From the IMG/VR virus record IMGVR_UViG_3300047321_000064, positions 1 to 25,553 of that record: a stretch of 25,553 nucleotides of DNA. One strand, given 5' to 3'. The position numbers and the translations under genes were made by a program. Shown piece after piece: positions 3,411 to 18,672 of this stretch; positions within the stretch are counted from its first letter, which is position 1; every line of letters starts with the position of its first letter. The notes under the pieces are model-generated. The model ran no database searches. It worked only from the letters and a program-made list of their open reading frames with translations, and had not been told where the DNA came from. Source of the stretch: a virus.

Positions 3411-3899
3411 ATGACCGAACTGACCGTCGAACGTCTTCGGGACCTCCTGCATTACGAGGTGGTCACCGGCAGGTTCTACTGGAAGATGTGGCGAGGCGGG
3501 TCTGCAAAGGCTGGGACCATTGCCGGATCCATTGACACCTGGGGACACAGGCAGATAAAGATCGACGGGGAAGTATATGGGGCGCATCGCCTGGCGTGGA
3601 TGTGGGTCACAGGAGAAACCCCACCTCCCCTGCTGGACCATGTTAATGGAGCTACGGACTGTAACGGGTTCCACAACATTCGCCCGGCAACATCCGCTCA
3701 AAACGCATTCAACAGTAAGGCCAAGTCTAGCTCTACCTCCGGCATCAAAGGCATCAGCAAGGTCAGAAGCGGCCGCTGGCGCTGGCGAGTGTATGTAGGA
3801 CGCACACTGCTGACAGGGACGGTTGATACGGCTGAGGAGGCTGCGGCAGCAGTACAGAGTGCCAGAGAGAAACTACACGGTGAATTTGCTCGCCATTAA
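3411..3899 (+). CDS. HNH homing-type endonuclease with AP2 DNA-binding domain
   Basis: A free-standing homing-type endonuclease that would nick or cut phage DNA at a specific site and promote its own spread. The HNH core lies at roughly residues 57-102 (HRLAWMWVTG, then LDHVNG and a NIRPATSAQN motif, as in the HNH_3 family). Residues 107-162 form an AP2-like domain (SGIKGISK, GRWRWRVYVG, TAEEAAAAV, KLHGEFARH). Length 162 aa is normal for this class. It sits between a small gene and the DNA polymerase gene, a common landing place near replication genes. The ATG at 3411 follows the previous stop by 1 nt. Most catalytic HNH positions appear intact, though the alignment was made by eye. Confidence 0.9.
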   Translation: MTELTVERLRDLLHYEVVTGRFYWKMWRGGSAKAGTIAGSIDTWGHRQIKIDGEVYGAHRLAWMWVTGETPPPLLDHVNGATDCNGFHNIRPATSAQNAFNSKAKSSSTSGIKGISKVRSGRWRWRVYVGRTLLTGTVDTAEEAAAAVQSAREKLHGEFARH

Positions 3900-6119: not shown

Positions 6120-6700
6120 ACAACATCAGCGGATACAGCATCGGCGACAAGGTTCGCCTGAAGACCTTCAATGCAGACAATCACCCCGAGGCGTTCCGTG
6201 GGGTCATGACGGTCGACAGTCTCAGCCCTGCCCTCAAGGGCCGCGTGGGCGTCCAGGGAAAGGGCGACATCGGTGCGTTCTTCCCGGCTGAACTGGAGCG
6301 CGATGGTTTCCGCGTGGGTGACCGCGTGGAGTTCGTCGAGGACTACAGCGCCACGCTTACCAGGGGCGTTAAGGGGACTGTGACGGGTTTGAGCGACGAC
6401 GGCATCCTCTATGTGTCGGCAGATAACGGCACCCGGGGTAGCTGCTTCTCCATGCGCGTGAAGCACGTCGAGGAAGTGGTCGAGGTAGTCGAGCAGGAAG
6501 CCGAACCGCAGCCGGTCACCTACCGCATCTGCGTGGGTTCGACCATCGGCAAGACCGAGTACCCGAGTCTCGAGACCGCCAAGGCTGCTGCCCTGCTGCA
6601 TGGCAAGGACGGCGAAGAGTTCTCCATCTGGGAAGTGGTCAAGGTCGCGGACTTCCGCGTGAAGGTCACGAAGTCCCTGGAACCCGTGGAGACGCTCTGA
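6116..6700 (+). CDS. Hypothetical protein with two SH3/KOW-like barrels
   Basis: A 194-aa protein not assignable to a named family. Residues 5-60 (YSIGDKVRLKTF... GVMTVDSLSP... KGRVGVQGKG) and 65-118 (FRVGDRVEFVED... GVKGTVTGLSDDGILYVSAD) both read as small KOW/SH3-like beta-barrels. An acidic linker (VEEVVEVVEQEAEPQP) leads to a C-terminal alpha/beta domain (SIWEVVKVADFRVKV). The C-terminal FWxVVKV-type strand resembles that of the 70-aa protein at 9091, so the two may share a small domain. The ATG at 6116 has the AGCGAGAGAG motif 3 nt upstream. The stop overlaps the exonuclease start. Nucleic-acid or protein binding is plausible from the fold only. Confidence 0.75.
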   Translation: MNNISGYSIGDKVRLKTFNADNHPEAFRGVMTVDSLSPALKGRVGVQGKGDIGAFFPAELERDGFRVGDRVEFVEDYSATLTRGVKGTVTGLSDDGILYVSADNGTRGSCFSMRVKHVEEVVEVVEQEAEPQPVTYRICVGSTIGKTEYPSLETAKAAALLHGKDGEEFSIWEVVKVADFRVKVTKSLEPVETL

Positions 6701-7428
6701 TGATGCTACTGGACGCGGACATCGCGCTGTTCTCATCGTGTGCTGCTGCAGAGACCGAGATCGAGTGGGAAGAGGACGTCTGGACGATCACCACTGACCT
6801 CAAGCTGGCTAAGGAGAAATTCCAAAGCTGGATTGACAAGGTGATGGCTCAGACTGACGAGACCGAGTTCGTCCTCTGTATGACAGGTCCGGACAACTTC
6901 CGGCGCAAGGTCTACCCGCCCTACAAGGCAAAGCGTGGGCGCAAGCCCGTGGGATATGCGGCGCTCAAAGAGTGGGCCAAGGAGAACTACAAGACCTTCG
7001 AGAAGCCCACTTTGGAGGCTGACGACTGTTTAGCCATCCTTGCTACCAAGTACCCCGGTAAGGCGCACATTGCCACCATGGACAAGGACCTTCTAGGAGT
7101 GCCGGGCAGGATGCTGCATTTGAACCAGAAGCTCGAGGGCACCTGGGTCGAGACGGACGAGAAGACAGCGTTCCGCCACTTCCTGTACCAGACGCTGACT
7201 GGGGACGCCACGGACAACTATCCGGGGTGCCCGGGTGTCGGTCCGGTGGGTGCCGAGAAGCTGCTGAAGACCAAGGGCGCAGTATGGGCAACGGTCATAC
7301 AGGCATTCGAGAAGGCAGGCCTTACCGAAGAGGACGCACTGGTCCAAGCGCGTTGCGCATGGATGAACCGCATCGAGAATTGGGACGCAGAAAAGGAGGA
7401 AGTGATCCTATGGACTCCCCCTGCATAG
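6700..7428 (+). CDS. T7 gp6-like 5'-3' exonuclease (FEN family)
   Basis: Removes RNA primers from lagging strands and digests DNA 5'-3', as T7 gp6 does. Family hallmarks are in order: metal-binding D5 and D7 (LLDADI), the helical-arch basic stretch FRRKVYPPYKAKR at 67-79, EADDC at 106-110, MDKDL at 127-131, and TGDATDNYPGCPGVG at 167-181 leading into the helix-3-turn-helix DNA-binding motif (GPVGAEKLL). All acidic metal ligands seem present. Length 242 aa is somewhat shorter than T7 gp6 (about 300 aa). Either of two adjacent ATGs (6700, 6703) could start it; 6700 overlaps the previous stop. Its last codons (TGGACTCC...) are part of a 13-bp sequence repeated at the far end of the next gene. 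Confidence 0.94.
   Translation: MMLLDADIALFSSCAAAETEIEWEEDVWTITTDLKLAKEKFQSWIDKVMAQTDETEFVLCMTGPDNFRRKVYPPYKAKRGRKPVGYAALKEWAKENYKTFEKPTLEADDCLAILATKYPGKAHIATMDKDLLGVPGRMLHLNQKLEGTWVETDEKTAFRHFLYQTLTGDATDNYPGCPGVGPVGAEKLLKTKGAVWATVIQAFEKAGLTEEDALVQARCAWMNRIENWDAEKEEVILWTPPA
7406..7418 (+). repeat. Left copy of direct repeat bracketing the HNH gene
   Basis: TCCTATGGACTCC here and TCCAATGGACTCC at 7822-7834 differ at one of 13 positions. This copy spans the end of the exonuclease gene and the start of the HNH gene. Confidence 0.85.
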
Positions 7429-7838
7429 AGGCGCCTGGCGCGAGAAATAAGGACGGCTACTGCCAGACCACCTTCGACGGTAAGCAGTCGCTGGCCCATC
7501 GGGTCGCCTACTGCAAGCACCACGGAATCCCTATCGAGAGCATCAAAGGGCTGGTAGTTCGGCACCACTGTGACAACCCTCCGTGCATCAACCCAGAGCA
7601 CCTGGAAATAGGCACCCACGCTGACAACATGCGGGACATGTACAGCAGGGGTCGTCGCGCCGCAGCACGCGGTGAAGCGAACGGACGCGCTGTCCTCACA
7701 GAGGCGCAGGTCCACCAACTCCGCGCTGAGTATGTCAAAGGCTCTCCGACCCACGGAACCCTGGCGCTTGCCAAGAAGTATGGAATTGGTAAGTCGCAGG
7801 CACACAACATTATCAAAGGACTCCAATGGACTCCGTAA
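7410..7838 (+). CDS. HNH homing-type endonuclease (HNH_3) with C-terminal HTH
   Basis: A 142-aa free-standing homing-type endonuclease. The HNH core is HRVAYCKHHG (residues 30-39), then VVRHHCDNPPCINPEHLEIG (49-68) and THADNMRDM, a typical HNH_3 pattern with paired Cys that may bind zinc. Residues 93-140 (LTEAQVHQLRAEYVKG, LALAKKYGIGKSQAHNII) form a helix-turn-helix used for target binding. The ATG at 7410 has an excellent AGGAGGA Shine-Dalgarno sequence inside the exonuclease gene; the open frame from 7227 is that gene read in another frame. The gene is bracketed by a near-perfect 13-bp direct repeat. Its first three codons match those of the downstream gene, and its last residues (WTP) match those of the exonuclease, strong signs that it was inserted at the junction. 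Confidence 0.9.
   Translation: MDSPCIEAPGARNKDGYCQTTFDGKQSLAHRVAYCKHHGIPIESIKGLVVRHHCDNPPCINPEHLEIGTHADNMRDMYSRGRRAAARGEANGRAVLTEAQVHQLRAEYVKGSPTHGTLALAKKYGIGKSQAHNIIKGLQWTP
7822..7834 (+). repeat. Right copy of direct repeat bracketing the HNH gene
   Basis: TCCAATGGACTCC, one mismatch from 7406-7418. It overlaps the last codons of the HNH gene and the first codons of the DUF5664-like gene. Confidence 0.85.
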
Positions 7839-8446
7839 AACACCCTGGCGTCGGTGCCAACTGGTACCCCCCGCATCAACCGTGGGCGGCTCCGGACCCG
7901 AGCTACTGGCAATGCACCCCGGCCCCCACGGCCCTTAACGGTCTGAGCAGTGCCCAGTTGCAAGCCATGGGCGAGAAGGCTGCTGCAGCGATGAAGGCCC
8001 AAGAGAAGCCCCCGAACCCCAAGCAACTCTACGGGGACAAGAAACCGCCCCTGCACCTGATCCACATGATCGCACAGCTTCACGAAAGCGCGGCGCTCAA
8101 GAGTGGTGCCCTGAAGTACGGCACGAACAACTACCTCGAGACCGAGGTCGAGGCCATGACGTACGTGGGCGCGATCCTGCGGCACCTCGGCCAGTGGGTC
8201 TCCGGGGAGCGTGTGGACCGCAAGGAACTGGTCCATCACCTGGGCGCGATCCGCGCTTGCACGAACATCCTGCTGACCGCTGAGGCCACTGGCATGCTGA
8301 TCGACAACCGGCCCCGAAGGTTTAACGAGACGCTTCCCTTCGACACCCGTCGCCCACCGAGCTACCAAGAGGCCACCGACGAGACGTTCGCGGAAGTCGA
8401 GCGGACCATCGAGCACCTGAACAAGCTGTATCCGGAGAAGCTGTGA
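7826..8446 (+). CDS. DUF5664-like dATP/dGTP pyrophosphohydrolase-family protein
   Basis: A 206-aa protein whose central part (about 66-152) matches the DUF5664 family, annotated as dATP/dGTP diphosphohydrolase and related to all-alpha MazG-type NTP pyrophosphatases. Visible hallmarks are GDKKPPLHLIH, ALKYGTNNY at 95-103, YVGAILRHLGQWVSGE at 113-128 and ELVHHLGAIRACTNILL at 134-150. It would adjust deoxynucleotide pools during phage replication. The N-terminal 60 residues are Pro/Trp-rich and look unstructured; the C-terminal tail is a charged helix. The ATG at 7826 overlaps the end of the HNH gene, with AAAGGA 5 nt upstream. The related MazZ enzymes help 2-aminoadenine phages, but I see no PurZ or DatZ here. 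Substrate assignment is by family only. Confidence 0.8.
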   Translation: MDSVKHPGVGANWYPPHQPWAAPDPSYWQCTPAPTALNGLSSAQLQAMGEKAAAAMKAQEKPPNPKQLYGDKKPPLHLIHMIAQLHESAALKSGALKYGTNNYLETEVEAMTYVGAILRHLGQWVSGERVDRKELVHHLGAIRACTNILLTAEATGMLIDNRPRRFNETLPFDTRRPPSYQEATDETFAEVERTIEHLNKLYPEKL

Positions 8447-17939: not shown

Positions 17940-18236
17940 TTAGATAGCCTTTTCGGTGGCGAGGAAGTACTCGAGGTTCTCGTTCTTGAGCTTCGCCACG
18001 GTCTTCTTGATCGGCTCCTGGAACACGTCATATCCATCGCGGTACCACTTGTCTACGAGGGCCGCAGGGATGGAGGCTACGTGCATCATTTCGCGCTCCC
18101 GCACGTTGTGGGAGGCAAGGCGCTTGTCGGCGAGGTCCTTGAGGAGCGAGTCGGGGATGGTTTGATGTGTGGTGACGATGTGCCCGTCTGTGTTGGACTG
18201 GACGTCTACAGACACGCCGTTATCGAGTTTCAGCAT
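17940..18236 (-). CDS. Hypothetical structural-region protein (98 aa)
   Basis: Not recognised. It begins with a short beta part (LKLDNGVSVDVQSNTDGHIV), then mostly helix (DSLLKDLADKRLASHNVRER, IPAALVDKWYRDGYDV, IKKTVAKLKNENLEYFLATE). Its position between the capsid and adaptor genes suggests a small virion or assembly protein. Its first codons overlap the end of the HNH gene by 17 nt, so the HNH gene probably arrived upstream of an existing gene. Only its coding status is reasonably secure. Confidence 0.75.
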   Translation of the reverse strand: MLKLDNGVSVDVQSNTDGHIVTTHQTIPDSLLKDLADKRLASHNVREREMMHVASIPAALVDKWYRDGYDVFQEPIKKTVAKLKNENLEYFLATEKAI

Positions 18237-18672
18237 TGCGGAGGGATCGGATGTGGGCGATGGTCGCTCCGAGGAGCTTCATCTCTGAGGGGGAGAACGT
18301 GTCACTGCGCACTCGATTACATTCGGTGCAGCAGGAGACCACGTTGGACTGGAGGTGTCCGAGGGAGTTATCGAGGCGGTCGAGGCCGCGAATATCAGCG
18401 GTAGTGCCACAGTAGGTACAAGGCTCCTCGGTGGTCTTTAAGAAGAATTCACCGGTAAGGTCGTTGTCCCTGCCCGCTTTGATGTCATGCTGCTTGTACG
18501 CGTACATCCTGCGCAGCCGTTTAGGCGTGCCTAGGGACGCATACGCCTTGTTTCTGGCGTTGAAGCACGGCTTACATTCGCTAGTCATCCCGTCGCGGTT
18601 AGCTGAGGCCTTGTAGAAGAACTCGCTGGTTGACGGATGTGTCTCCCCGCACTTGGTGCAGGTCTTTTGCAT
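18220..18672 (-). CDS. HNH endonuclease with N-terminal zinc-ribbon
   Basis: A 150-aa free-standing endonuclease. The N-terminal KTCTKCGETHP and ECKPCFNARNK segments (C5, C8, C33, C36) form a zinc-ribbon. The HNH core is CTYCG (about 90-94) followed by RGLDRLDNSLGHLQSNVVSC and CTECNRVRSD, in which paired Cys hold zinc around the catalytic motif. It is the third HNH gene of the window and interrupts the structural genes between the capsid and 98-aa genes. It lacks a visible ribosome site and starts directly behind a terminator-like hairpin, so expression is probably low. Homing is the likely role; a packaging-related nick is an alternative. Confidence 0.85.
   Translation of the reverse strand: MQKTCTKCGETHPSTSEFFYKASANRDGMTSECKPCFNARNKAYASLGTPKRLRRMYAYKQHDIKAGRDNDLTGEFFLKTTEEPCTYCGTTADIRGLDRLDNSLGHLQSNVVSCCTECNRVRSDTFSPSEMKLLGATIAHIRSLRNAETR

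Follow-up and report, generated by a model that had tools for sequence, protein, structure and literature searches.

The free-standing HNH endonuclease gene of the window (the whole stretch analysed here, a virus fragment from IMG/VR, 25,553 bases long) probably derives from a homing-type invasion of the 3' end of an exonuclease gene, joined through microhomology and filtered by the readability of two overlapping genes. The insertion is of a known kind and has left a junction that is unusually legible. Little is documented on how a free-standing homing gene makes its first entry into a new site with the neighbours left intact, because old sites keep few traces. At this site, filled and empty alleles, two overlapping genes and the HNH gene of a second phage at the same junction make the joins readable almost base by base. 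The joins also yield a direct cleavage prediction, and a further pattern that can be tested is the repeated use of exonuclease gene ends.

The locus, on the + strand, consists of a T7-type 5'-3' exonuclease gene (6700..7428; PF02739/PF01367, phrog_107), the HNH_3 gene (7410..7838; 142 residues, motif residues intact) and a gene of the dATP/dGTP diphosphohydrolase N-terminal family PF18909 (7826..8446; dGTP_diPhyd_N, formerly DUF5664). The HNH gene has its own start and stop and sits between the two others; no group I intron or intein was found around it, the Rfam search detecting no intron in the window. Its HNH_3 domain (PF13392) scored 44.1 bits against a curated cut-off of 24.8, and the protein has every residue that is invariant in an alignment of 12 sequences, H52, N56, H64 and N73 among them (motif residues 52-73, HHCDNPPCINPEHLEIGTHADN, 7563..7628). 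The last codons and stop of the exonuclease (LWTPPA-stop) fall within the HNH gene, where the TAG (7426..7428) is out of frame in the C-I-E codons (TGC ATA GAG). An AGGAGGA ribosome-binding site (7394..7400) precedes the HNH start, and AAAGGA in the HNH 3' end (7815..7820) likely serves the downstream gene as its new ribosome-binding site, judging by sequence and spacing. A nucleotide search of public phage records returned no close relative of 6700-8446, and sequence and profile searches returned no solved structure for the HNH protein. The PHROG label of the downstream gene (phrog_2252, "endolysin; inhibits RNA polymerase"), which has been copied into public records, conflicts with the Pfam assignment dGTP_diPhyd_N.

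The repeat described in the first-pass annotation was confirmed: TCC[T/A]ATGGACTCC occurs as a left copy (TCCTATGGACTCC, 7406..7418) and a right copy (TCCAATGGACTCC, 7822..7834), matching at 12/13 positions and starting 416 nt apart. Each copy is read in two frames. The left one provides the W-T-P of the exonuclease end (TGG ACT CCC) and the M-D-S of the HNH start (ATG GAC TCC), while the right one provides the HNH end (QWTP; TGG ACT CCG TAA, W-T-P-stop) and the start of the downstream gene (MDS; ATG GAC TCC GTA). One repeat period, the inserted unit of 416 nt (7410..7825, with edges ambiguous within the 9-nt repeat), contains the intact HNH_3 gene as its sole gene, and no transposase was found in it. 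Removal of one unit had been said to leave an exonuclease ending LWTP-stop and an intact DUF5664 start; a script join of 7409 to 7826 bore this out, giving ...GGAGGAAGTGATCCTATGGACTCCGTAAAACACC, with the exonuclease ending VILWTP-stop, the next gene starting MDSVKHPG and AGGAGGA standing ahead of that start. The exact part of the repeat, ATGGACTCC, is absent elsewhere in the window; 0.24 copies are expected by chance, and at least two copies appeared in 4/100 shuffles. The bare repeat is unremarkable by itself, such flank matches being equally frequent at ordinary neighbouring genes. It was taken as real because it is placed on two start codons and because empty relatives exist.

Using the exonuclease and downstream protein as queries, we gathered 14 loci without the HNH gene (L001, L075-L086 and L090), in which the exonuclease gene is followed directly by the DUF5664 gene. 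The site is thus polymorphic for the presence of the HNH gene, with an intact empty allele. In L001, whose exonuclease is 96% identical to that of the window at the protein level, the exonuclease ends VILWTPQ-stop over ATGGACCCC, and the downstream gene opens with ATGGACCCC, 15 nt ahead of the end of the exonuclease stop. AGGAGGA precedes this downstream start, in agreement with the earlier proposal that the ribosome-binding site of the HNH gene formerly served the downstream gene. In L075, the exonuclease ends KLWTP-stop over (T)TGGACTCCGTAAAGCATCC, and the downstream gene starts TTGGACTCCGTAAAGCATCC (LDSVKHPG), which matches the right side of the window. The motif CT[A/T]TGGAC[T/C]CC is common to both genes in 12 of the 14 empty loci and lies at the junction in L001 and six other aligned representatives; the junction reads CTATGGACTCCCTAA in L084 and CTCTGGAC.CC in L086 and L090. 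HNH-less relatives therefore have the uninterrupted overlap that was predicted for them, with an exonuclease ending WTP (or WTPQ) and a next gene starting [A/T]TGGAC[T/C]CC. Judged from these aligned sequences, the alleles show that a single stretch of DNA, now present in two copies (at least 9 nt, ATGGACTCC), once formed both the end of the exonuclease gene and the start of the DUF5664 gene. The exonuclease gene is 83-95% identical to L001 in nucleotides (60-nt bins) up to the junction, whereas the right side of the insertion matches L075 (TGGACTCCGTAAAGCATCC); this combination is consistent with the joining of two alleles. We also observed that identity to L001 from about 6500 to 7409 was 81-95% per 60-nt bin, compared with 33-68% in most bins just upstream, and that this block stops at the junction, which points to the exonuclease allele having been exchanged recently.

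The ends of the HNH gene were then compared with those of its family. Relatives at unrelated sites (L198/L204, L202, L194, L197 and L203) start MDTPCI and the HNH protein of Acinetobacter phage B1 starts MKTPCID, the usual N-terminus of the family being MD[S/T]PCI or M[K/I]TPCI and the DNA start of the MDTPCI/MKTPCI-type relatives ATGGA[C/T]AC.CC. Close to the C-terminus, W140, whose TGG codon (7827..7829) lies in the right copy and overlaps the downstream ATG (7826-7828), is conserved in at least 90% of the aligned HNH set. Because the MD[S/T]PCI start is native at unrelated sites and the near-C-terminal W is conserved, the family start [A]TGGAC[A/T]CNCCNTGCAT and the W codon are shown, at the level of sequence, to match the target ATGGACTCC natively. 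The first-pass annotation had taken the HNH ends as copies of the ancestral ones. The match itself stands, as does the WTP ending shared with the exonuclease; the first codons are not a simple copy of the downstream start, MD[S/T]PCI being family-native, and W140 is itself a family residue. Residue 3 of the HNH protein is S (TCC), as in the target, and T in other MD-type members, which is weak evidence for a left join immediately behind TCC.

We propose that the HNH gene entered at the point where the T7-type exonuclease and dGTP_diPhyd_N (DUF5664) genes share about 12 nt. A cut in the empty junction, or close to it, would have been followed by repair on the donor with microhomology joins, the left one formed within ATGGAC.C and the right one at TGG; ATGGAC beyond the start codon could be a chance match at a few percent, and the right-hand microhomology is TGG only. 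The exonuclease end and the DUF5664 start would each come from a different copy or allele of the site, which would account for the duplication. The HNH start would have taken over the old AGGAGGA site, captured in position, while the C-I-E codons would give the exonuclease its new stop and the HNH 3' end would supply the downstream gene with the AAAGGA site. Two overlapping native genes both stay readable only when the join repeats their overlap, and selection for such joins would explain the neatness of the footprint. In phage T4, microhomology joins have been described in the repair of endonuclease breaks (PMC2988022). Homing genes of this type are often located at borders of exchange and close to essential genes (PMC10448857).

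A second phage, L332, has the same order exonuclease-HNH-PF18909 and the same 19-nt overlap. Its exonuclease is 55% identical to that of the window and ends LWTPPA-stop exactly as the latter does, and its HNH protein (49% identical) starts TTGGACACCCCCTGCAT, making the left junction the same. At the other end, the HNH protein finishes W-K-H-I-stop and the next gene either shares ATGA with the HNH gene or has its start at the W codon; the 9-nt repeat is absent from the L332 exonuclease/PF18909 junction. Absence of the repeat from relatives carrying the same HNH gene had been named in advance as evidence against the insertion, and L332, with its 49% identical protein, shows it in part. In an 87-member tree, the window HNH grouped with one from a Cupriavidus prophage, situated at another site (94/86), and the L332 HNH with another phage (98/88). 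We did not adopt an independent origin from these differing groupings, as a single clade of the two was not rejected (p-AU 0.386); one old arrival and two separate arrivals are both possible.

Exonuclease 3' ends appear repeatedly as sites. The phrog_107 exonuclease was the commonest recognised family among the upstream neighbours of non-redundant HNH relatives (6/70), the six loci being the window, L332, B1, L265, L276 and L279. In five of these six, the window counted, the HNH gene starts 13-20 nt before the exonuclease stop ends. That stop is the TAA of HNH codons TGC ATA ACT in L332. In B1 it is a TGA located 20 nt inside the HNH gene, as it also is in SPN1S, where the HNH gene lies behind an exonuclease VIII. 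A DNA pattern scan for the exonuclease-HNH junction gave no HNH locus among the matches listed. A single clade of the six HNH genes was rejected (p-AU 0.015), so the exonuclease 3' end has been settled more than once: HNH genes sit at T7-type exonuclease 3' ends in six phages, through at least two arrivals. A bolder reading, which we regard as doubtful, is that the coding ends of this HNH lineage act as landing adaptors for overlapping gene pairs, allowing repeated entry without damage, with the window and L332 as two landings. The HNH start ([A/T]TGGAC.CNCCNTGCATA) would then match T7-type exonuclease genes at their conserved W-T-P end; a new exonuclease stop would come from the C-I codons, and the start of the next gene from the conserved W codon.

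Could the repeat be a coincidence of three look-alike start/stop overlaps, with no duplication? For each of 209 non-redundant HNH genes we aligned the left flank with the right one (gapped local alignment), with mismatched pairs and neighbouring ordinary genes as controls. HNH flanks beat mismatched pairs, and ordinary neighbouring genes did so equally: flank matches equal to or better than that of the window (scores of at least 21) were reached by 3.8% of the 209 HNH relatives and 3.9% of the neighbouring genes, with mean scores of 13.48 and 13.50. A general excess of flank repeats, considered with 82, 76 and then 209 HNH relatives, vanished against the neighbouring-gene control. Repeats alone say little about how rare clear footprints are, because ordinary neighbours show repeats as often. 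That about 4% of ordinary genes reach such scores would suit coincidence, but in empty relatives one set of bases serves as both exonuclease end and DUF5664 start, and each of these exists in two copies here. Since the empty relatives have a single copy and the window two, a duplication of some kind is required at any repeat score; coincidence is extremely improbable, and the empty relatives refute it as far as exonuclease-DUF5664 loci go.

A transposon-like insertion, in which nicks staggered by 9 nt at ATGGACTCC were filled in and the first three HNH codons are target sequence, would account for an exact 9-nt repeat whose copies correspond to one ancestral copy, and for the S (TCC) at residue 3 as in the target, where other MD-type members have T. 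We nevertheless consider this quite unlikely. M-D-[S/T]-P-C-I is the native family start elsewhere, the same-site HNH gene of L332 lacks such a repeat, and flanking repeats are not in family-wide excess over neighbouring genes. Neither transposase nor terminal inverted repeats were found (no inverted repeats in 7000-8300), and independent insertions do not share a duplication of constant length (L332, the family as a whole, SPN1S, AbTP3phi1); comparison of SPN1S with PAT1 and of AbTP3phi1 with APK32 revealed small deletions or replacements, not duplications. L330 carries a longer footprint than the window: its HNH protein and next gene both begin MAVNVKVLIPAKIAENTQT, the HNH gene starting with the downstream gene's first 19 codons (L330:1447-1503 and 1932-1988; 19/19 residues, 43/57 nt). 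These copies are diverged alleles, impossible from a staggered cut, and point to a join between two genomes rather than to filling-in. The opposite history, an HNH gene ancestrally beside the exonuclease and lost from the empty relatives by deletion between direct repeats, draws on the gene order and 19-nt overlap shared with L332 and on the unrejected common clade (p-AU 0.386). Against it, 14/14 exonuclease-DUF5664 relatives are empty, including L001 with its 96% identical exonuclease, L332 lacks the repeat that would support precise loss, and the larger tree places the window HNH with a prophage HNH at another site (94/86); such a loss seems very unlikely.

A target-duplication reading by eye in SPN1S, AbTP3phi1, L204 and L084 was set aside, the matches being short, suggestive and statistically unsecured. 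In L204 (L204:2501-2923), the nearest HNH relative, comparison with L239 and L240 showed that the last codons W-Q-P-stop continue as GGCAGCCATGAATACC; this right join is clearly target, GGCAGCCATGAATACC being what the empty allele has ahead of the next gene and at its start.

The putative homing gene of the window resembles the free-standing mob (HNH) and seg (GIY-YIG) genes of T4, small endonuclease genes between conserved DNA-metabolism genes that overlap the upstream gene; segC, segF, mobA and mobC starts do so by 11-24 bp (PMC2988022). Unlike in T4, the invaded junction was itself a gene overlap, which is now duplicated. In lactococcal Skunavirus phages, several distinct I-HmuI-like HNH genes can share one insertion location, most of them in the replication module (PMC12724721), which recalls the different HNH genes at one location here, although those locations are mapped approximately, not to junction bases (PMC12724721), and the phages and HNH lineages differ. 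Closer parallels are Friunavirus B1 (L226), L265, L276, L279 and L332, with HNH_3-family relatives directly behind a phrog_107 exonuclease; in B1, however, endonuclease VII follows, and the join bases differ from those of the window in B1, L265, L276 and L279, not in L332.

Other HNH genes were seen in the window. An HNH-like gene at 18220-18672 (-) starts exactly at the position of the next gene's start codon in the empty loci L182, L184 and L191; the ATG of that next gene (17940-18236) reappears at the HNH 3' end, giving a 17-nt overlap, and a relative in L180 is likewise inserted at the ATG of the following gene. A third HNH_3 gene (3411-3899, +) lies between a small gene and the DNA polymerase gene, and is found at the same place in L183 (G002; 100% identical) and L179 (G001; 55%). 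Two close relatives carry group I introns (RF00028) at one place in the DNA polymerase gene (L183:10710-10947 and L077:3108-3719), at which the window gene is uninterrupted.
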